A stretch of 64,000 bases of DNA, taken from the NCBI RefSeq assembly GCF_021405525.1, contig NZ_JAGQAG010000001.1, forward strand, positions 186,001 to 250,000, read 5' to 3'. Below, piece by piece: positions 4,494-33,181 of this stretch; positions within the stretch are counted from its first letter, which is position 1, and every line of letters begins with the position of its first letter. This DNA comes from Ruegeria pomeroyi (GTDB taxonomy: Bacteria > Pseudomonadota > Alphaproteobacteria > Rhodobacterales > Rhodobacteraceae). Under the pieces are notes generated by a model. That model was not told the origin of the DNA and ran no database searches. It saw nothing but the letters and a program-made list of their open reading frames with translations. The position numbers and the translations under genes are program-made.

Positions 4494-4847
4494 ATGCAGT
4501 TTATCTGGGCGGCTCTTGGACTGGTCTGCGTTGCCCTCGCCCTGATTGGCGTTGTCCTGCCGCTGCTTCCTACTGTGCCGTTCCTTCTGCTGGCCGCGTT
4601 CTTCTTTGCCCGTTCGTCCGAGCGCCTGCATACCTGGCTGCTGACACATCGCCTGTTTGGCCCGATGATCGTTGACTGGCAGCAATCTGGCGCCATCCGT
4701 CCAGGCGCAAAAAAGGCGGCAACCCTGTCGATTGCCGCCGTCTTTGGCCTGTCGCTTCTTCTCTCGGCCCCCTCCCATGTCCTGGCCATCCAAGCCGTGG
4801 TTTTAGGGGGAGTGCTGATCTTTATCTGGACCCGCCCTAACGGCTGA
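4494..4847 (+). CDS. DUF454 (YbaN-like) inner-membrane protein
   Basis: A 117-aa integral membrane protein with an N-terminal hydrophobic hairpin (about residues 2-40, including GVVLPLLPTVPFLLLAAFFFA), a short polar stretch, and two C-terminal hydrophobic segments (about 75-112). The PLLPTVPFLLLAAFFFARSS signature is that of DUF454/YbaN. Function is unknown in the family. It follows hemW by 3 bases and closes the rph operon. Its end overlaps the 3' end of convergent parB by 11 bases. Confidence 0.85.
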   Translation: MQFIWAALGLVCVALALIGVVLPLLPTVPFLLLAAFFFARSSERLHTWLLTHRLFGPMIVDWQQSGAIRPGAKKAATLSIAAVFGLSLLLSAPSHVLAIQAVVLGGVLIFIWTRPNG

Positions 4848-5727
4848 GCTTGGCGCAAAGATCGTCCAACTGATCCAGATTCTCATAGGTCAGGACCACT
4901 TGACCGGTTTCGGTTCCCGCCTTGTGGTTGATCGTCACCTTCATCGCCAGGATCGCCGACAGATCCTTTTCCAATGCGCGGGTATCGGCGTCCTTGTCGC
5001 TTCCGGCCGATTTCGGGCGCGTCGTCGCCGCGGGCTTCTCGCCTTCCACCTGCTTCTTGACCAAAGCCTCAGTCGCGCGTACCGACAGCCCGTCACGCAC
5101 CACGATCCTGGCCAATTCCGACGGATTTTCGCTGGTAATCAGGGCGCGGGCATGTCCGGCCGACAGTTTTCCTTCGACCACCATCTGTTGAACGTCATCC
5201 GGCAAGGACAGCAGGCGTAGAAGGTTCGCGATATGACTGCGGCTTTTGCCCAGCGCTTCGGCCAGCTTTTCCTGTGTATGGCCGAACTTGTCCATCAACT
5301 GCCGATAGCCTGCGGCCTCTTCTACCGCGTTCAGGTCGGCGCGCTGGATATTCTCGATGATCGCGATTTCCAGGACTTCGGTATCGTCCAGCTCGCGTAC
5401 AAGAACCGGAACCTGATGCAGTTGTGCCAGCTGCGCCGCGCGCCAGCGACGTTCACCGGCGACGATTTCGTACATGTCACCCTCAACGGGACGCACGATC
5501 AGCGGTTGCAAGATACCCTTCTCTTTGACCGAGGCTGCAAGCTCTTGCAGCGCCTCTTCGGTAAAGGTGCGGCGCGGCTGGTTCGGGTTTGCGCGCAGCT
5601 TTTCGATAGGCACAGTACGATCAGGGCGACGCGAGGACTCACCACTGGTCGCCTCTGGCGTCTGCGTCACATCGGCCATCAAAGCGGACAGTCCGCGTCC
5701 CAACCCCCGGGGCTTGTTCGAAACCAT
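4837..5727 (-). CDS. parB: Chromosome partitioning protein ParB
   Basis: ParB (296 aa) loads at parS and spreads as a CTP-dependent clamp to segregate the origin region. The N-terminal CTP-binding module has the arginine patch GERRWRAA (about residue 92). A central helix-turn-helix (GHTQEKLAEALGKSRSHIANLLRLL) contacts parS. The C-terminal segment dimerises. It lies 22 bases downstream of parA. Its DNA targets are visible upstream at 7116-7131 and 9018-9033. Confidence 0.97.
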   Translation of the reverse strand: MVSNKPRGLGRGLSALMADVTQTPEATSGESSRRPDRTVPIEKLRANPNQPRRTFTEEALQELAASVKEKGILQPLIVRPVEGDMYEIVAGERRWRAAQLAQLHQVPVLVRELDDTEVLEIAIIENIQRADLNAVEEAAGYRQLMDKFGHTQEKLAEALGKSRSHIANLLRLLSLPDDVQQMVVEGKLSAGHARALITSENPSELARIVVRDGLSVRATEALVKKQVEGEKPAATTRPKSAGSDKDADTRALEKDLSAILAMKVTINHKAGTETGQVVLTYENLDQLDDLCAKLSR

Positions 5728-5749: not shown

Positions 5750-6553
5750 TCAGGCGGCGATCTTTTTATGTTTCTTCATCAATTCAGCGGCCAGGTCACG
5801 ATAAGCCATCGCGCCCAGAGAGTTTGGATCATAGCTGAGTACCGGCATTGCAAAAGACGGCGCCTCGCTGACCCTCACGTTACGCGGTATCTTGGTTTCG
5901 AAAACCAGATCACCCAGATTGTCGCGTGCATCCTTTTCGACCTGCTGCGACAGGTTGTTGCGGCGGTCATACATGGTCAGCACGATCCCCTCGATCCGCA
6001 GATTGGGGTTGGCCGCCTGACGCACCTCGCGGATGGTCAGCATCAGTTGCGACAACCCCTCCAGCGCAAAGAACTCGCTCTGCAACGGTACCAGTACGGA
6101 ATGCGCGGCAACCATTGCGTTGACCGTCAACAGGTTCAGCGACGGTGGGCAATCGATCAGGATGTAATCCCACAAATAGGCGTCCATTGCTGTCTGACGC
6201 AGTGCATCATGAAGCAGAAAGCTTCGCTTCTCGTTCGAGATCAGTTCGATATCCGCCGAGCTGAGATCGACTGTCGCCGGAACGATCGAAAGCCCCTCAA
6301 TGTTGGTTTTCTGGATCACGGAGTTCAGTGGCGCATCATCCACCAGCAACTCATAGGTCGTCAGGTCACGCTCATCCACGCCCAGCCCGGTCGAGGCGTT
6401 CCCTTGTGGATCGAGGTCCACCACAAGAACACGCTGGCCCGCTTCGACCAGCGCTGCCGCAAGGTTGATGGCTGTTGTGGTCTTTCCCACGCCGCCTTTC
6501 TGGTTGGCGACCGCTATGATCCGGGGTCCGACTGGACGGGAAAGATCAGACAC
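5750..6553 (-). CDS. parA: Chromosome partitioning ATPase ParA
   Basis: ParA/Soj (267 aa) is a nucleoid-bound ATPase that moves ParB-parS complexes. The deviant Walker A, NQKGGVGKTTTAIN (about residues 18-31), and the IDCPPSL Walker B motif are intact. It overlaps the end of rsmG by 8 bases and precedes parB, so mnmG, rsmG, parA and parB probably form one transcription unit reading away from oriC. Confidence 0.97.
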   Translation of the reverse strand: MSDLSRPVGPRIIAVANQKGGVGKTTTAINLAAALVEAGQRVLVVDLDPQGNASTGLGVDERDLTTYELLVDDAPLNSVIQKTNIEGLSIVPATVDLSSADIELISNEKRSFLLHDALRQTAMDAYLWDYILIDCPPSLNLLTVNAMVAAHSVLVPLQSEFFALEGLSQLMLTIREVRQAANPNLRIEGIVLTMYDRRNNLSQQVEKDARDNLGDLVFETKIPRNVRVSEAPSFAMPVLSYDPNSLGAMAYRDLAAELMKKHKKIAA

Positions 6554-7160
6554 GCGTGACTCCTGTTATCTTCAAAAGAACGGCCTGGGGCTCGGTTAAA
6601 CTAGTAACCGCGTCATAGGAGAAATTCCATTGCTTCGCGGCCTCTTGCATCTCTTTTTTCCAGTTGGCGCCCTTGGGGAACAGCGCAGTTCCGCCGGGTT
6701 TCAGGTGCCTCTCGGCAAAACCCAGCAACCCTGTCAGATCGGTCAGAGCACGGGCAGAAAGGATATCTGCGTCCAACGAGTCAAGATGCTCGATACGCTC
6801 GGATATCACCTGACATTCGATGCCGCATTCGCGTGCAGCGCTACGCAGAAACGCCGATTTTCGCTGATCGCTCTCGACACAGATAAACTTGGTTTCGGGT
6901 TGCTCTTCGGCAGCCAGAATTGCACAGATCAAACCTGGAAAGCCGCCGCCACTGCCAAGATCGGCCCACAGATCGCCTGTATGGGCGTTGCGGAACACCT
7001 GAATGGAATCGACTATGTGACGAACCCACAGATCGTCCAAGCTACGCTTCGATACCAGGTTGATCCGAGGATTCCACTTGTGCACCAAATTGGCAAAGGT
7101 CCTCAGCCGCTCGGATGTTTCACGTGAAACATTCAGCGCGTTCGCATCGGGCACCGTCAT
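6546..7160 (-). CDS. rsmG: 16S rRNA (guanine527-N7)-methyltransferase RsmG
   Basis: RsmG/GidB (204 aa) methylates G527 of 16S rRNA; its loss gives low-level streptomycin resistance in other species. The SAM-binding motif [11 protein letters not shown] is present. Length is normal. The start overlaps the mnmG stop by 4 bases. Codons 10-15 (Asn-Val-Ser-Arg-Glu-Thr) are written by a perfect parS site, so protein and DNA-signal constraints overlap here. Confidence 0.96.
7116..7131. promoter_or_regulatory. parS centromere site 1 (inside rsmG)
   Basis: The 16-bp palindrome TGTTTCACGTGAAACA matches the bacterial parS consensus exactly. It lies within codons 10-15 of rsmG, in the frame Asn-Val-Ser-Arg-Glu-Thr. 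ParB encoded at 4837-5727 is the expected ligand. It is about 5.2 kb from the proposed oriC. Confidence 0.95.
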
Positions 7161-9034
7161 GCGCTTCGCGCTCGGTCGCCACGGCGCAAGCGGGCCAGAA
7201 TCAGTGCAAGCGCCGCCGGGGTCATCCCCTCTACCCGTCCTGCCTGCGCAATGTTCTCAGGTCGCGCGGATGTCAGCTTTTGTTTCAGCTCATTTGACAA
7301 CCCATCGAGCGAGGAAAAGCTGAAATCGGCCGGGATGACCATAGCCTCATCCCGTTTCATAGCCTCGACATCCCGTTCTTGTCGCGCGATATAATTGGCA
7401 TAAAGTGCATCACGTTCCACTTGGTCGCGGGTTTCAGCGTCAGTCTCTTCTAACCCTGGGATCAGCGGCACCAATTCGTCAAACCCGACATCGGGAAACG
7501 CGAGAATAGCAAAGCCATTTCTCCGACTGCCATCCTGACTGATCTTGATACCAGCCGCGGCAATCTCTTTTGGGGTAAAGCTGCTCTGATCGAGTAGAGC
7601 TGAAGCTTTCGCCAGATTTTCGGCCTTACGTGTAAACGCATCACGCCTCTCATCACCAACGCAACCCAATTCCAGGCCCAGTGGTGTTAGCCGTTGATCT
7701 GCGTTATCCGCACGCAAGGACAGACGGAATTCCGCCCGCGAGGTGAACATTCGATATGGTTCTGCTACACCGCGCGTGGTCAGATCGTCAATCATCACAC
7801 CGATATAACTGTTTGACCGGCTGACAAGGACAGGGTCACGACCCAATATCATGTTGGCAGCGTTCAACCCAGCTAGCATCCCTTGCGCCGCAGCCTCTTC
7901 ATAGCCAGTCGTTCCATTGATCTGGCCGGCAAGGTACAAGCCCGGAACATTCGGTAGCGACAGTTGGGACGTCAGGGCACGTGGATCGACATAATCGTAC
8001 TCGATCGCGTAACCAGGTTGCAGAATTTCGACTTTTTCCAGTCCCCGGATCGAGCGGACATAATCCTCCTGAACATCTACCGGCAGCGAGGTCGAAATAC
8101 CGTTCGGATAGACAGTGTGATCTTCCAGACCTTCGGGTTCTAGGAAAATCTGATGCGACTCTTTGTCAGAAAAACGAACAATCTTATCTTCGATCGACGG
8201 GCAATAACGGGGGCCGACACCTTCGATGTGCCCGCCATACATCGCGGAACGAGTCAGGTTCTCGCGGATAATCTCGTGCGTCCGCGCGTTGGTGTGCGTG
8301 ATACCGCAAGCGATCTGACGCGCATAAACCCCTTTAGACAGGAACGAGAACAAGACAGGGTCCTCATCCCCTTCCTGTCGTTCTAAGATTGACCAGTCGA
8401 TGGTGCGCCCATCCAGTCGGGGCGGCGTTCCCGTTTTCAGCCGTCCCATCGGCAACGCGAACCCGTCCAGCCTTTCGGCGAGCGGAACCGAGGGTCGGTC
8501 TCCTAACCGTCCACCAGAGCGCGAGACATCACCAATGTGAATGATTCCGCGCAGGAACGTACCCGAGGTCAGGATCACGGCTTGCGATGCAATCTCGGAG
8601 CCATCCGCCAAAACGACACCAGCAACGCGATACCCTTGCATGCGGAAATCGATGACTTCGCCCTCGACAATGGTCAACCCAGGGCGACTACGCATTTCTT
8701 CCTGCATCGCCAGTCGATAGAGCTTGCGATCGGCCTGAGCGCGCGGCCCCTGTACAGCAGGTCCTTTGCGCCGATTAAGCAGACGAAATTGAATCCCAGC
8801 CTTGTCGGCCACCCGTCCCATGACCCCGTCAAGCGCGTCGATCTCGCGAACAAGATGTCCCTTTCCCAGACCGCCAATGGCAGGGTTGCAGGACATCACA
8901 CCGATGTCGCGTTCGGACAGGGACACTAGGGCAGTCCTCATACCCATGCGTGCCGCAGCATGTGCCGCCTCAGCACCGGCATGCCCGGCCCCGATCACCA
9001 CGATATCGAAATCCGAATGTTTCACGTGAAACAC
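7157..9034 (-). CDS. mnmG: tRNA uridine-5-carboxymethylaminomethyl synthase, FAD subunit MnmG
   Basis: MnmG/GidA (625 aa) works with MnmE to install cmnm5 on U34 of certain tRNAs. The N-terminal FAD-binding Rossmann motif [12 protein letters not shown] and the GCNPAIGG-type segment (here [13 protein letters not shown]) are intact. The start codon is GTG at 9034-9032, and its last two bases are the first bases of a parS site, giving the N-terminal peptide FHVKH. It lies 3 bases downstream of mnmE, its functional partner. Confidence 0.97.
9018..9033. promoter_or_regulatory. parS centromere site 2 (at mnmG start)
   Basis: A second perfect copy of TGTTTCACGTGAAACA. It overlaps the GTG start codon of mnmG and is translated as Phe-His-Val-Lys-His, a different reading frame from site 1. 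The distance to site 1 is about 1.9 kb, and to the proposed oriC about 3.3 kb. Confidence 0.95.
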
Positions 9035-10355: not shown

Positions 10356-11627
10356 TCAGGTATTCATCGAATCGAAGAATTCGCCGTTTGTCTTGGTCTG
10401 TTTCAGCTTTGACAACAGGAACTCGATCGCGTCGGTCGTGCCCATCGGATTGAGGATCCGACGCAAGACAAAGGTTTTTTGCAGATCGCCCTTATCGACC
10501 AACAGATCCTCTTTCCGGGTACCGGATTTCAGGATGTCGATAGCCGGGAATACCCGCTTGTCGGCGATTTTCCGATCCAGCACGATTTCAGAGTTACCGG
10601 TGCCCTTGAACTCTTCAAAGATCACTTCGTCCATCCGGCTGCCGGTATCAATCAGCGCGGTTGCGATGATGGTCAGCGAACCGCCCTCTTCGATGTTCCG
10701 GGCCGCACCGAAGAACCGCTTGGGCCGCTGCAACGCATTGGCATCCACACCACCGGTCAGAACCTTACCCGAGGACGGGACAACTGTGTTGAATGCCCTA
10801 CCAAGTCTTGTGATCGAGTCGAGCAAGATAACAACATCTCGTTTATGTTCGACCAGGCGCTTGGCCTTTTCGATCACCATTTCCGACACGGCTACGTGGC
10901 GGGTCGCTGGTTCATCAAAGGTCGAGGACACCACCTCGCCCTTGACCGAGCGCTGCATGTCGGTGACTTCCTCGGGGCGTTCGTCGATCAACAGAACGAT
11001 CAGATAGCACTCGGGGTGGTTACGCTCGATCGAGTGGGCAATGTTCTGTAGGATCACCGTCTTACCGGTCCGCGGCGGCGCCACGATCAGCGAGCGCTGG
11101 CCCTTCCCGATAGGCGCGACCAGATCGATCACCCGGGCCGAACGGTCCTTGATGGTGGGATCCTCGATCTCCATCTTCAGCCGTTCATCCGGGTAGAGAG
11201 GTGTCAGGTTATCAAAGGCAATCTTATGACGCGCCCTTTCAGGGTCTTCAAAATTGATCTTGGTGACATTGGTCAGCGCAAAATAGCGCTCGTTGTCGTC
11301 GGGCGCCTTGATCGCACCCTCGATCGTATCGCCGGTGCGCAAGCTGTACTGGCGGATCATGTCCGGCGAGACATAGATGTCATCCGGACCTGGCAGATAG
11401 TTCGCTTCGGGCGAGCGGAGAAAGCCAAAGCCGTCCTGCAGCACCTCAAGCACGCCATCGCCGCCGATGGTCCATCCCTCATCCGCGCGCTCGCGCAGGA
11501 TCTGGAACATCATCTCGCCCTTGCGCATGGTCGAGGCGTTTTCGATCTCCAGCTCCTCGGCCATGGACAACAGGTCCTTGGGACTCTTTGCCTTGAGATC
11601 GGCGAGATTCAGGGATTCGATCGTCAT
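10356..11627 (-). CDS. rho: Transcription termination factor Rho
   Basis: Rho (423 aa) is the hexameric RNA helicase that ends untranslated transcripts. It has an N-terminal Rho-N helix bundle ([22 protein letters not shown]), an RNA-binding cold-shock-like domain ([23 protein letters not shown]), and an ATPase core with Walker A (PRTGKT) and the [11 protein letters not shown] segment. No insertions are seen. A hairpin lies in its 5' leader. Confidence 0.97.
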
Positions 11628-11752: not shown

Positions 11753-12202
11753 TCAGAATTTCACGATCACCGACAGCACGATCACCACCATTAGCAGCGT
11801 CGGCACCTCGTTCATCATCCGGTACTGGCGCCCGGTCAATCGGTTTTGCCCTGACAGGAACGCGCGACGGCGGGCGTTGAGCCATTCATGGAACCAGGTC
11901 ATCGCAATGACGGATACACCCTTGGTCCAGGGCCAGACCTCGCCCCAGTCGACGATACCCGGCGTCAGAACCATGATCAGACCACAGACCCAGGACACGA
12001 TCATTGCCGGTCGCATGATCACGCGCATCAGCTTTTCTTCCATCTCGTGAAAGATCGCCGGTGCGTTCTGCACCTTCTCAGCCTTTTCGACGTGATAGAC
12101 AAACAGCCGGGGCAGATAGAACAGACCGGCCATCCAGCTGATCACCGCCATGATGTGCAGGGATTTGACCCATGGGTACAGGGTGAACAGAAGGTCGGTC
12201 AT
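11753..12202 (-). CDS. hemJ: Protoporphyrinogen IX oxidase HemJ (CopD-like membrane protein)
   Basis: HemJ (149 aa) oxidises protoporphyrinogen IX in heme synthesis in bacteria that lack HemY/HemG oxidases. Four hydrophobic helices are visible. The first carries HIMAVISWMAGLFYLPRLFVYH, with the conserved histidines thought to bind heme. The frame extends upstream into AT-rich DNA, but the family start is the ATG at 12202. It lies between rho and the proposed oriC. Confidence 0.9.
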   Translation of the reverse strand: MTDLLFTLYPWVKSLHIMAVISWMAGLFYLPRLFVYHVEKAEKVQNAPAIFHEMEEKLMRVIMRPAMIVSWVCGLIMVLTPGIVDWGEVWPWTKGVSVIAMTWFHEWLNARRRAFLSGQNRLTGRQYRMMNEVPTLLMVVIVLSVIVKF

Positions 12203-12289
12203 TATGTCTCTCTTCGGGCGATTGGTCTCGTATCTAATAATAAAAAAGAAAAGAAGAAAGATTGATGGTTTTGTAGGTAGCTCCGTTTT

Positions 12290-12298
12290 CGTGGATAA
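12290..12298 (-). promoter_or_regulatory. DnaA box, 8 of 9
   Basis: Read on the minus strand it is TTATCCACG, one base from the TTWTNCACA consensus. Confidence 0.6.
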
Positions 12299-12357
12299 CT
12301 GTTCTCTCCCTGCGGTTTTCCCCAATGTGAGAAACTTTGCGCGTATGTTCCATGTTC

Positions 12358-12366
12358 TGTGGAAAA
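12358..12366 (-). promoter_or_regulatory. DnaA box, perfect
   Basis: On the minus strand TTTTCCACA matches the TTWTNCACA consensus exactly. It adjoins the second AT-rich tract. Confidence 0.7.
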
Positions 12367-12384
12367 TTCAAGCATTATTCTTTT

Positions 12385-12399
12385 TTAACAATGTCTTAT
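12385..12399 (+). promoter_or_regulatory. CtrA-like motif in oriC region
   Basis: TTAA, 7 bases, then TTAT. This is one base from the CtrA consensus TTAA-N7-TTAA, which marks origins silenced by CtrA in Caulobacter. A single degenerate copy in AT-rich DNA can arise by chance. Confidence 0.3.
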
Positions 12400-12606
12400 G
12401 TCACTATCATTTGCCGGATTAAATCGGGGAGCGCACGGGGAGGCCCATGAATAGGTCGGATTATCCCAACTGTCGCGGTTATCCTTGTCCAGATGGGACG
12501 GAACTCGGGCGACTCGGGTGAGATTTCTGCAATTTCACCGGACTTGCACGTCAAGGCGAAAAGCATGAAAACCCATACTTGAGCAATCACCAGATTTCCC
12601 ACGGGG

Positions 12607-12615
12607 TTTTCCACA
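12607..12615 (+). promoter_or_regulatory. DnaA box, perfect, abutting the maf start
   Basis: TTTTCCACA matches the consensus exactly; its final A is the first base of the maf ATG. DnaA bound here would cover the translation-start region of maf. Confidence 0.65.
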
Positions 12616-13214
12616 TGACTGTCCCCCTCATCCTGGCATCGGGTTCCGCCATCCGGGCCCAGTTGCTGGAAAACGCGGCCGTCCCTTTTACCAAGGATGT
12701 ACCGCGCGTCGATGAAGAAGCGGTAAAGGCAGCCTTGCTGGCCGAGGGCGCGCCACCGCGCGATATCGCCGATGCGCTGGCCGAGATGAAGGCACGCAAG
12801 ATCAGCGACAAACATCCCGGCGCCATGGTGTTGGGATGCGATCAGGTGCTCGACTTTCAGGGCAGGCTGTTGTCCAAGCCTGACAGCCCCGAGACCGCAC
12901 TGGCCGAGCTGAAACAGATGAGCGGTCAGCGGCACATGCTCTTGTCAGCAGCAGTGATCTATGAAAACGGGCAACCCGTCTGGCGCCATGTCGGGCAGGT
13001 CCGTCTGCGGATGCGGGCATTGTCCGACAGCTATCTGACAGGCTATGTCACCCGCAATTGGGACAGCATTCGCCACGCGGTCGGCGGTTACAAGCTCGAG
13101 GAAGAAGGCGTGCGCCTGTTCTCGGCCATTGACGGGGATCATTTTAACGTTTTGGGTATGCCCCTATTGGAACTACTGAATTTTTTTGCATTGCGCGGAG
13201 TGATCGACACATGA
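12615..13214 (+). CDS. maf: Maf family nucleotide pyrophosphatase
   Basis: Maf-like protein (199 aa), a pyrophosphatase acting on modified or methylated nucleoside triphosphates and linked to septum control. The N-terminal LILASGSAIRAQLLENA matches the family substrate-binding loop, and GCDQVLDF carries the conserved acidic residue. A TTG 36 bases upstream is in frame, but homology starts at the ATG at 12615. It is the first rightward gene after the proposed origin and overlaps aroE by 4 bases. Confidence 0.9.
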   Translation: MTVPLILASGSAIRAQLLENAAVPFTKDVPRVDEEAVKAALLAEGAPPRDIADALAEMKARKISDKHPGAMVLGCDQVLDFQGRLLSKPDSPETALAELKQMSGQRHMLLSAAVIYENGQPVWRHVGQVRLRMRALSDSYLTGYVTRNWDSIRHAVGGYKLEEEGVRLFSAIDGDHFNVLGMPLLELLNFFALRGVIDT

Positions 13215-30257: not shown

Positions 30258-33181
30258 GTCAGATCCTCAGGTTCGGGCGTGGCGCTGCGATCCCATTCTC
30301 CGAACCGCGCCAGATGATCGTAATCGCCGATATCGCTGTCCTTGTGCAGCATACGGCGCGAGGTAAAACCCTGATCTGGCTCGAAATAGGCGCCGATCAG
30401 CTGGTGCAGCTCGGCCCAGACTTTGACCGGGGGCTCGGCGTCGAGCGGGGCCGGCACCTCTTTGTAGCTGCCACCCATGCCGATAAAGACCGCGCGCGCC
30501 ACCGGGGCCGGGTCGATCCCCTCGAAGCCGCCCTCTTCGGCCAGCGCAGCCTCGATCAACAGCTGCCGGTCGAATTTCGCCTGCTGCTTTTCGCTGGGCG
30601 GTGCCCCAGTCTTGTAGTCGTAAAGACAGAGCGAGCCGCGTTCGGTGCGGTCGATCCGGTCGGCCCGCCCGGTCAGGGTGAAATCCAGCCCGTCGAGCTG
30701 TTTGTGCATCCGCGCCTCGAAGGCGATCGGGCCTGCATCGGCGCGCCGGGCCTCTTCGGACAGCAAAAAGGCATCGGCCACCCGGTCGAGCCGCGCCAGC
30801 CACAGCGCCCGCGCCGTGGGCCAGGCGACCAGCTCCTCCAGCATCGTGGCCGCGCGTTTCAGGAAGGTGTCGCGGTTGAGCAGGGCCATGTCCAGCACGC
30901 TGTCGCGCACGAAACTCTCCAGGATCTCGTGGATCACGATCCCCCTCAACAGCGCGTCGGGTGCCTGCACCAGCGGGTCCAGCGGTTTGAGCCGCAGCAC
31001 ATGCCGGGCATAGATCGCGTAAGGATCGCGGATCAGTTTCTTGATCTCGGTCACCGACAATTGCCGGGGCCGCGCGGCCAACGGGGGTCGGGGCGAGGGG
31101 CGCGGGGCCGGGGCGCTGCGCGGCGCCTCCTCCAGCGCCTCGGCCATGGACAGCCAGCGACGGCCGCGCGCCCGCATTTCGGACAGCGCCACTGCACCGC
31201 CCTGATCGGGCAGGCCCTGCAACAGGTTGGTCAGCCGGTTCAGCCAGCGCGAGGGCACGGTTTCGGCATCGTCCGAGCGTTTGGCGCGGGTCAGCCAGAC
31301 CTCGGGCGCGCCGATGGCCTGCTGGAAATCATGCGCCGACAGGCCGATGCGGCGTTCCGGCAGCAACAGGCCCGCATCATGGCGCATGCGCCGGTTCAGC
31401 CAGGGGTCGGGGGCAGGGGCTTCGGGCCAGCTGCCCTCGTTCAGCCCGCCCAGGATCAGCAGGTCAGCCCCCATCACCCGCGCCTCGAGCGTGCCCCAGA
31501 TCATGATGCCGGGATAGGGGGCGTCGCGGTCGCGCACCTCGCCCGTGGACAACAGCCCGCCCAGCAGGTCGGCGAAATCGCGGGCGTCCATCTCGCCGCC
31601 ATGCGGGGCCTCGTCGGCCAGAGCGGTGACAACAGCCAACGCCTCTTGCCCGGCCTTCTGTTCCCAAAGGTTGCCGCTGCCGCCCTCGGCGCCTGCCGAC
31701 AGCGCCTCGGCCAGCTGGCGCAGGCGGTCGACCCAATCGGACAGCGGCAGGGCGCCGATGACATGCTGGTCGCAGAAACAGCGGGCGACCCAGTTGGTCC
31801 AGCCCTCGGGCACCTCGCGGCGGGTGGCGAAAGCGGTCAGGTCTTCGGCACCGGGAAAGGGCGGGCCGTTGCGGCGCAGGTCCAGCTCCAGATCGCGGGT
31901 GTGGAGCAGGTGTTCGTTGCGGCCCTCTCCGGTGTGACACAACGGGTGTTTCAGCAGCGTCAGCAGTGCCTCGCCATCCAGCCGGGACGAGAACAGCCCC
32001 GCGACATGGCGCAGGAACCGGCCCGGTGGTGACAAGTGCAGTGGCAGGCCGGCGCTGTCATCGGGCAGGATGTTCCAGCGATCAAGCGCGGCGCTGACCT
32101 GCCGTGTCAGCATCCGGTCGGGGGTGATCAGCGCCGCGCTTTGCCCATCCTCGGCCGCCTGGCGCAGGCGCAGGGCGATGGCCAGCGCCTCGTCCCTTGG
32201 GCTCGCCGCCTCGATCAGGGTGACGTCGCGGCTGGCGGTGTCGATGCCCCCCAGCTGTGGCCCCTCGCTCATCCAGGCATCGGTCACCGGCGCGGGGCGA
32301 AGTGCCAGCGACACCAGCCGGTTGCGGCTGGGGCAGGGGGCCACGTCATCCGACCAGGGTGCGATCTGATCCGGCGTCAGGCCCAGCCGCGCCATCAGCC
32401 GGGCAAAGCGGAACTGGGGATGGTCCTCGGCGGTCAGCGCGTCCTCGAGCCCGTCCCAGACCCGCCCCGGCTGGTCGAAGTCAAAGCCGGGCAGCACCAC
32501 GGCGCCCTGCGGCAGGCGGGCAACCGCCTCCATCAAGAGCATTGTGGTCCCGCGCGACCCGGTGGAACCGGCCAGGATCACCGGATGTTCGGGCGGGTGC
32601 TGCGCCCATTCCGCGATCAGCGCCTCGACCACCCGGCGTTGCCGGGCCTGCACGTCCAGTTCGTCGTCACCACTGCGCAAATAGCGCTCGGCTATGGCGA
32701 TGAATTGCTGCGCACGCGCCCAGTGCCCCGACTGGTCGCTGACATCCAGCGCCCGAATGGCAGCGGGTGTGACCCCTTCGCCCTGCATCTCGTCGATCAG
32801 AGCGGCCAGGCTATCGGAAAGGTCGAAAATCGATGCCCGCGCTGCCAGATCGGGCTGCTGGTCCAAAAGGCGCGTGATCAGCTGCACCAGTTCCAGCCGC
32901 CGCCGCAATGGTGGAACGGCGGGTGGAAGATGGGTAGCCGCGCCCAGCGCCGTCAGGTCGGTGACCAGCGACACCCGCGGCAACAGTGCCGCCGGCCCGG
33001 CATCGAACAACGCGCGGATGCGCCGCTCCATCCGGTGGGTGTTGACCACCAGCTGCACCCCCGCCAGCACATGCGGCGGCTGCCCGGCAACACGTTGGTG
33101 CAGCCCCTGCACCAGCGCGCGCGGGAAATCGACGCCGGGCGGCAGGGCAAAGACACGGGGGTGCGGGCAGGGGTCAAACAT
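30254..33181 (-). CDS. addB: Double-strand break repair protein AddB
   Basis: AddB (975 aa) is the second subunit of AddAB, with an inactivated helicase-like part and a nuclease domain. The C-terminal nuclease motif is GRADRIDRTERG followed by LYDYKTG. At the position where Firmicutes AddB has the first iron-sulfur cysteine (CPFAxF), this protein has RDPYAIYARHV, so the cluster appears absent. The upstream frame is open, but homology begins at the ATG at 33181 (MFDPCPHPRVFALPPG), which overlaps the murU stop. Confidence 0.93.
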   Translation of the reverse strand: MFDPCPHPRVFALPPGVDFPRALVQGLHQRVAGQPPHVLAGVQLVVNTHRMERRIRALFDAGPAALLPRVSLVTDLTALGAATHLPPAVPPLRRRLELVQLITRLLDQQPDLAARASIFDLSDSLAALIDEMQGEGVTPAAIRALDVSDQSGHWARAQQFIAIAERYLRSGDDELDVQARQRRVVEALIAEWAQHPPEHPVILAGSTGSRGTTMLLMEAVARLPQGAVVLPGFDFDQPGRVWDGLEDALTAEDHPQFRFARLMARLGLTPDQIAPWSDDVAPCPSRNRLVSLALRPAPVTDAWMSEGPQLGGIDTASRDVTLIEAASPRDEALAIALRLRQAAEDGQSAALITPDRMLTRQVSAALDRWNILPDDSAGLPLHLSPPGRFLRHVAGLFSSRLDGEALLTLLKHPLCHTGEGRNEHLLHTRDLELDLRRNGPPFPGAEDLTAFATRREVPEGWTNWVARCFCDQHVIGALPLSDWVDRLRQLAEALSAGAEGGSGNLWEQKAGQEALAVVTALADEAPHGGEMDARDFADLLGGLLSTGEVRDRDAPYPGIMIWGTLEARVMGADLLILGGLNEGSWPEAPAPDPWLNRRMRHDAGLLLPERRIGLSAHDFQQAIGAPEVWLTRAKRSDDAETVPSRWLNRLTNLLQGLPDQGGAVALSEMRARGRRWLSMAEALEEAPRSAPAPRPSPRPPLAARPRQLSVTEIKKLIRDPYAIYARHVLRLKPLDPLVQAPDALLRGIVIHEILESFVRDSVLDMALLNRDTFLKRAATMLEELVAWPTARALWLARLDRVADAFLLSEEARRADAGPIAFEARMHKQLDGLDFTLTGRADRIDRTERGSLCLYDYKTGAPPSEKQQAKFDRQLLIEAALAEEGGFEGIDPAPVARAVFIGMGGSYKEVPAPLDAEPPVKVWAELHQLIGAYFEPDQGFTSRRMLHKDSDIGDYDHLARFGEWDRSATPEPEDLT

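Follow-up and report, generated by a model that had tools for sequence, protein, structure and literature searches.

Does the gap between two divergent genes of this Ruegeria pomeroyi chromosome, which we take from the first-pass annotation and general knowledge to be hemJ and maf, contain the replication origin? This question was addressed in the window, the whole 64-kb stretch of DNA analysed here, which equals C1:186001-250000 of a 4.51 Mb genome in four contigs (C1: 3,818,855 bp). The gap is bounded by the ATG of hemJ (minus strand, 12202) and the ATG of maf (12615) and has a G+C content of 0.45 compared with 0.59 in its flanks (Table 1). The gene to the left of hemJ is presumably rho. Judged by HemJ, the nearest named relatives are Ruegeria and other roseobacters, among matches that may omit the genome itself and very near ones. 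As had been claimed, the divergent orientation of hemJ and maf produces a strand switch across the gap. Its description as the only large gene-free gap could not be established, since a crude ORF model leaves five more stretches, 355-702 bp long, in which it places no ORF; the ORFs in two of these five were inspected. An Rfam search of the 64-kb window at gathering thresholds returned no match.

Table 1. Features of the predicted origin region and its surroundings, in window positions unless marked C1.
Feature	Position	Strand	Remarks
parB	4837..5727	-	
parA	5750..6553	-	
parS, perfect TGTTTCACGTGAAACA	7116..7131	.	5.1 kb from gap
parS, perfect TGTTTCACGTGAAACA	9018..9033	.	3.2 kb from gap
rho	10356..11627	-	nearest left-hand gene where hemJ is absent
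hemJ	11753..12202	-	149 aa
hemJ/maf intergenic gap, predicted oriC	12203..12614 (C1:198203-198614)	.	412 bp
A/T tract, predicted DNA unwinding element	12231..12280	.	nearest-neighbour stability scan
DnaA-trio-like motif AAGATTGATGG-TTTT-GTAG	12258..12276	+	from alignments; family consensus GGATGATG.TTTTGTAGG
Conserved G-box-like DnaA box TTATCCACG	12290..12298	-	family form T[TAG]ATCCACA; points at A/T tract
Second conserved weak DnaA box TTTTCCCCA	12316..12324	+	last six bases TCCCCA = Caulobacter W-box
Perfect TTWTNCACA box, not conserved	12358..12366	-	at most one mismatch in 6/76
Second least stable stretch of window	12362..12412	.	stability scan
Conserved DnaA box at maf start	12607..12615	+	vs TTWTNCACA: 0 mismatches in 43/76, at most one in 62/76
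maf	12615..13214	+	199 aa

The DnaA boxes described by the first-pass annotation are all present: two perfect TTWTNCACA sites, one of which shares its last base with the maf start codon (the A of ATG), and the 8/9 box TTATCCACG. Three more one-mismatch sites (12316, 12326 and 12382) lie within the gap. For three perfect sites per 64 kb, the shuffle mean is 1.49 and at least three were found in 17 of 100 shuffles, while across the genome 84 matches were counted compared with 57 for a reversed control pattern. Further, box pairs less than 400 bp apart are found at four other places on C1 (ca. 1.160, 1.677, 3.080 and 3.153 Mb). Since three boxes are not unusual by chance and close pairs exist at four other places, box counting alone is weak evidence. 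The perfect-box count was consequently rejected as proof of an origin, with close pairs at five C1 places including the gap and a 12358 box that is not conserved. The four other pairs (C1: 1159544/1159905, 1676629/1676705, 3080286/3080427 and 3152701/3152784, one of them consisting of two TTATCCACA sites 76 bp apart) are perhaps DnaA-regulated promoters or titration sites; none of them looks like a replichore switch, given that the sampled skew is single-signed on both sides of each. An inverted TTTTGCACA box pair with an identical 17-bp offset was additionally seen on two other replicons (C2:27125-27150 and C3:118675-118700), where it may perhaps mark plasmid origin or operator sites.

Conservation of the gap was then followed within the Rhodobacteraceae. 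The arrangement of hemJ, a gap of 327-439 bp and maf was found in all 30 best loci of 150 family genomes, this genome being among the 30, and the same gap, 347-452 bp long, in 75 of 80 named loci. Most named loci share a larger block, with parB-parA-rsmG-mnmG-mnmE-rho on the left and aroE-coaE-dnaQ on the right. The five exceptions are one locus that ends there and four Paracoccus loci (L101, L120, L126 and L138), where the search for maf next to hemJ found nothing; aroE is the next gene in three of these four, and all four retain a match to the origin core. When the gap of the window was aligned with 75 others, two conserved blocks emerged from the 76 sequences, at ca. 12237-12336 and in the last dozen bases before maf. 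Within the first block, the 12290 box agrees with TDATCCACA, a pattern picked after inspecting the alignment, with at most one mismatch in 66 of the 76 sequences (shuffled control: 1%); against TTWTNCACA the same tolerance is reached in 34/76 for this box and in 55/76 for the 12316 box. At window 12607-12617, many relatives share a DnaA box that overlaps the start codon of maf, and because of this overlap DnaA may act as a repressor of maf or link the start of the gene to the origin.

A structure-free profile (R1) was built from 41 Rhodobacteraceae sequences, namely window 12232-12342 and 40 counterparts. At E <=0.01 it has a single match in this genome (C1:198235-198339, E 7.5e-18). With the same threshold it matches 128 of the 150 family genomes and has no match in the other 22, a count that is partly the result of construction since the training set includes this genome and others (e.g. 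G036 = L072, G113 = L088). For 40 named loci outside the training set, the match fell at the expected place beside hemJ in all 40 (E <1e-5 in 37), the four Paracoccus loci without maf alongside among them; this result is not independent because the loci are relatives of the training sequences. No HemJ match better than 1e-8 was obtained in 23 R1-matched family genomes. In all 20 of these that were examined (the set excludes G109, G114 and G119), hemJ was not found at the rho/maf locus and the element lies between rho and maf within the same gene block. Conservation of the element is therefore separate from that of the genes around it.

Outside the family the same element is found beside hemE. 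Of 290 class genomes, 195 have no R1 match; the 95 that do comprise this genome, four more of the family and 90 from outside it. A search for hemE (PF01208) was carried out on the best 54 of the 90 non-family genomes (E up to 9.6e-4), the remaining 36 having weaker matches and some of them entering the second test described below. The R1 match lies 8-226 bp upstream of hemE, in divergent orientation, in 47 of the 49 hemE-bearing genomes; two more carry hemE and the match on separate contigs, and in five of the 54 hemE was not found. DUF299 (PF03618) was present in 26 of 30 of these genomes tested for it and starts 228-457 bp past the R1 match, on the side opposite hemE, in 24 of them, with distances of 3.6 and 6.0 kb in the remaining two. 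A second profile (R2), made from 21 class loci and nine family sequences, matches 171 of the 290 class genomes, with no match in 119. It was used for a second hemE test on 70 further non-family genomes among the matches listed (E down to 3.7e-4), none of them in the R2 training set or among the first 54, some of which share a family or genus with training genomes and are thus not fully independent. In 58 of 63 hemE-bearing genomes the R2 match lies at most 251 bp upstream of hemE, always divergent. Among the five misses, two matches are ca. 1.2 kb away from hemE, a third opens the sequence of a single-contig genome, and the last two lie elsewhere. For comparison, the chance of a random place falling less than 600 bp upstream of one given gene is about 0.0002 per genome. 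In this genome, hemE is located at C1:551,451, 353 kb from the gap, and DUF299 was not found; hemE is likewise distant from the element, or on a different contig, in each of the 11 other family genomes tested. This distribution indicates that the element stayed while its neighbours changed. In one relative (G008, C3:2394977-2395992), hemE matches as two adjoining pieces, perhaps owing to a sequencing error or a split gene.

These results bear directly on the idea that the gap is no more than a divergent promoter region for hemJ and maf in which the DnaA boxes serve to control gene expression. Such a role would suit the orientation of the two genes and the conserved box touching the maf ATG, and a regulatory role is quite plausible for the other close box pairs of the chromosome. 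On the other hand, the element sequence is kept when rho (20/20) or hemE takes the place of hemJ and when maf is not found alongside, and a promoter would hardly retain one sequence beside three unrelated genes. We consider a promoter function on its own very unlikely.

The gap also holds the least stable DNA of the window, which likewise speaks against a promoter alone. In agreement with the AT-rich tracts noted in the first-pass annotation, the least stable 30-, 40- and 50-step stretches of the whole window all start at 12230-12231, and mean A+T in columns 12237-12262 of the 76 aligned sequences is 83%. The motif at the right end of the tract has a core, GATTGATGG-TTTT-GTAG, at 12260-12276, in which the TAG at 12274-12276 reads 3'-GAT-5'. 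Its polarity relative to the DnaA box was interpreted according to the generally accepted arrangement of such arrays. A spacer of 13 nt (12277-12289) separates the motif from the 12290 box here, and across the 76 sequences this spacer measures 13 nt in 37, 14 nt in 14 and other lengths in 13, with no match in 12; the 3-mer at the 13-nt position is TAG in 40 of 76. Runs of at least three TAG/TTG triplets were found in none of the 76 Rhodobacteraceae sequences. A literal DnaA-trio array in the form of such runs was thus not found in the family, and the trio step of the proposed mechanism is correspondingly weaker here. Outside the family, a run of at least three between tract and box occurs in 13 of 21 loci compared with 1% of shuffles and 0/21 on the opposite strand, an enrichment that is in part built in since these loci were picked by likeness to R1, which contains GATGATG. 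The 21 were drawn from 25 non-family R1-matched loci (L184-L208) by omitting L203, a short locus, and L204, L206 and L207.

We further searched the gap for CtrA and IHF binding sites. Exact CtrA sites (TTAA-N(5-8)-TTAA) were not found in the gap, nor was an IHF site, either by a general pattern or by the looser pattern of PMC1914354. A loose CtrA-like site, TTAACAATGTCTTAT, is located at 12385-12399 inside the second low-stability stretch; using the PMC1914354 patterns, 47 of 500 shuffles have as many. One GANTC lies within 12101-12800.

GC skew and parS sites were next compared with the position of the gap. Skew was sampled over ca. 406 kb in stretches plus the 64-kb window, out of 4.51 Mb. 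On C1 it is mostly negative at 0-0.19 Mb and 2.4-3.8 Mb and mostly positive at 0.25-2.2 Mb, and the gap sits in the zone where the sampled skew switches sign. The contiguous cumulative skew over 250 kb falls up to the gap and is near-flat from there. A skew minimum elsewhere, which the first-pass annotation had regarded as speaking against an origin here, was not clearly found: the minimum of C1:1-250000, at 246,908, is 48 kb from the gap on its right side and belongs to a shallow plateau starting at the gap itself. Four relatives gave a similar and noisy picture, with mean skew lower on the left than on the right of the element; G008 has its change 90-190 kb off, and G139 shows no negative skew on the left. 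Coarsely, the skew fits an origin in this region and singles out no site, and as a means of pinpointing the origin it was rejected as too coarse. Across C1:198000-247000 (window 12000-61000), where a positive slope would be expected, skew is near-flat and slightly negative for 50 kb, perhaps the result of a recent inversion or insertion. Within this interval, ARAGORN calls a tRNA-Val (aac) of 95 nt at window 32986-33080 on the minus strand, where the DNA is very rich in G+C, a doubtful call given that Rfam at gathering thresholds finds nothing there.

The perfect 16-mer parS sequence occurs only twice in the genome, both copies being in the window to the left of the gap, and a two-mismatch copy is found at C1:172270. 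The first-pass annotation had placed both parAB and parS within 5 kb; this broadly holds for parS, while parA and parB are 5.6-7.4 kb away. An origin at another site up to ca. 150 kb away, such as the skew minimum around C1:246,900 or the neighbourhood of dnaA, whose sole match is at C1:45,842, 152 kb from the gap, would be in keeping with the position of that minimum and with the fact that oriC adjoins dnaA in many bacteria. However, no perfect TTWTNCACA is found between C1:198,615 and 417,322, R1 matches the gap only, skew is negative on both sides of dnaA and both perfect parS sites lie no more than 5.1 kb left of the gap, making a location elsewhere even less probable than a promoter function. 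Least credible of all is that the element is the relic of an ancestral origin with replication now starting at another site, as its sequence is constrained across the family and both parS and the skew sign fit the region.

Taken together, the profile matches on the hemE/DUF299 side, the parS sites, the skew zone and the low duplex stability support the placement of oriC between hemJ and maf. We conclude, with a probability of roughly 0.94, that the gap is the chromosomal oriC and that it is homologous to the hemE-adjacent origin of other Alphaproteobacteria.

Based on the arrangement of conserved features, we infer the following order of DnaA binding, directional filament growth, unwinding and bidirectional start. 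DnaA would bind the G-box-like 12290-12298 box together with weak boxes to its right (12316 and others). A DnaA-ATP filament would then extend leftward from the 12290 box, over the 13-bp spacer and onto the short, interrupted trio-like motif, opening the A/T tract, where the helicase would be loaded and from where forks would depart in both directions. The new origins would subsequently be segregated by ParB bound at the two parS sites. In the Rhodobacteraceae, hemE and DUF299 would have given up their places next to the element, which now lies between hemJ (or rho) and maf. On a broader scale we lean towards the view that a homologous core of ca. 100 bp, consisting of an A/T tract, a TAG/TTG array, a spacer of ca. 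10-13 bp and a G/W-type DnaA box, represents the ancestral origin of most Alphaproteobacteria, which remained fixed while hemE, hemJ, rho, DUF299 and maf came and went, and of which the Rhodobacteraceae carry a derived form with the array cut by TTTT. If so, the cut array should make opening in the Rhodobacteraceae need fewer DnaA subunits or another register.

The gap is with high probability a known kind of element at a slightly edited address, and its kind is ordinary. What goes beyond routine annotation is that one core would mark the hemE-side origin in many alphaproteobacterial families and that the array is broken in the Rhodobacteraceae. The probable origin of a large marine bacterial group is thereby placed to within a few hundred bases, and the analysis points to its being the very DNA element that lies at the hemE-side origin in other Alphaproteobacteria. 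A limited search of the open literature yielded no report joining hemJ, Rhodobacterales and a replication origin, and no title announcing a class-wide conserved core. In a Wolbachia study, ori regions are described as alike only among closely related bacteria (PMC1914354); our profile results suggest a recognisable origin core across much of the Alphaproteobacteria. With the help of such a core, origins could be located in draft genomes for which skew and box counts are ambiguous. In Hyphomonas neptunium, skew and box counts reportedly gave no clear answer, and marker frequency peaks close to hemE, with parAB ca. 7 kb off and two parS sites (PMC6650430).

Origins of 101 Rhodobacteraceae chromosomes have been predicted with Ori-Finder from the skew minimum, DnaA boxes, low GC and nearness to parAB (PMC6699656). 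These predictions probably refer to the same locus; the main text of that study contains neither hemJ nor maf, and a description of a conserved element was not noticed there. The element also resembles the basal unwinding system of Bacillus subtilis and of many predicted origins, with a box pointing at the A/T tract, a 13/14-nt spacer and TAG (3'-GAT-5') in place. DnaA-trios have the consensus 3'-GAT-5' and a spacer distribution peaking at ca. 10-13 bp, as given in PMC8287927 and PMC6669920. The DnaA-trio criterion asks for at least three trios within 16 bp of a DnaA box, and the published search rule is 3'-NAN-5'; the counts given here are of TAG/TTG runs. In contrast to the basal unwinding system, the family consensus run is broken by TTTT, while the non-family loci often have longer TAG/TTG runs, in which TTG departs from the A-centred rule.

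A close parallel is the origin of Caulobacter crescentus, Cori, which has been mapped experimentally to the hemE/DUF299 gap (PMC1914354). It differs from the origin proposed here in that hemE is 353 kb off and DUF299 was not found in this genome, and in that the gap has neither an exact TTAA-N7-TTAA CtrA site nor an IHF site and only one loose CtrA site. According to a review, most of the other origins in the Alphaproteobacteria show no CtrA sites (PMC4468827), so that CtrA/IHF sites are not a general defining feature. Nearness to parS is comparable, parS being within 8 kb in Caulobacter (PMC4468827) and 3-5 kb away here. By published motifs, the Caulobacter G-box TGATCCACA and W-box TCCCCA (PMC4285127) both have counterparts, the former being covered by the TDATCCACA box and the latter contained in the 12316 site. 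In other families R1 and R2 match the hemE/DUF299 gaps, with hemE on the A/T-tract side, which is the place of hemJ here. The gap is not beside hemE, yet its element and orientation are as in the hemE-adjacent matches of other families.
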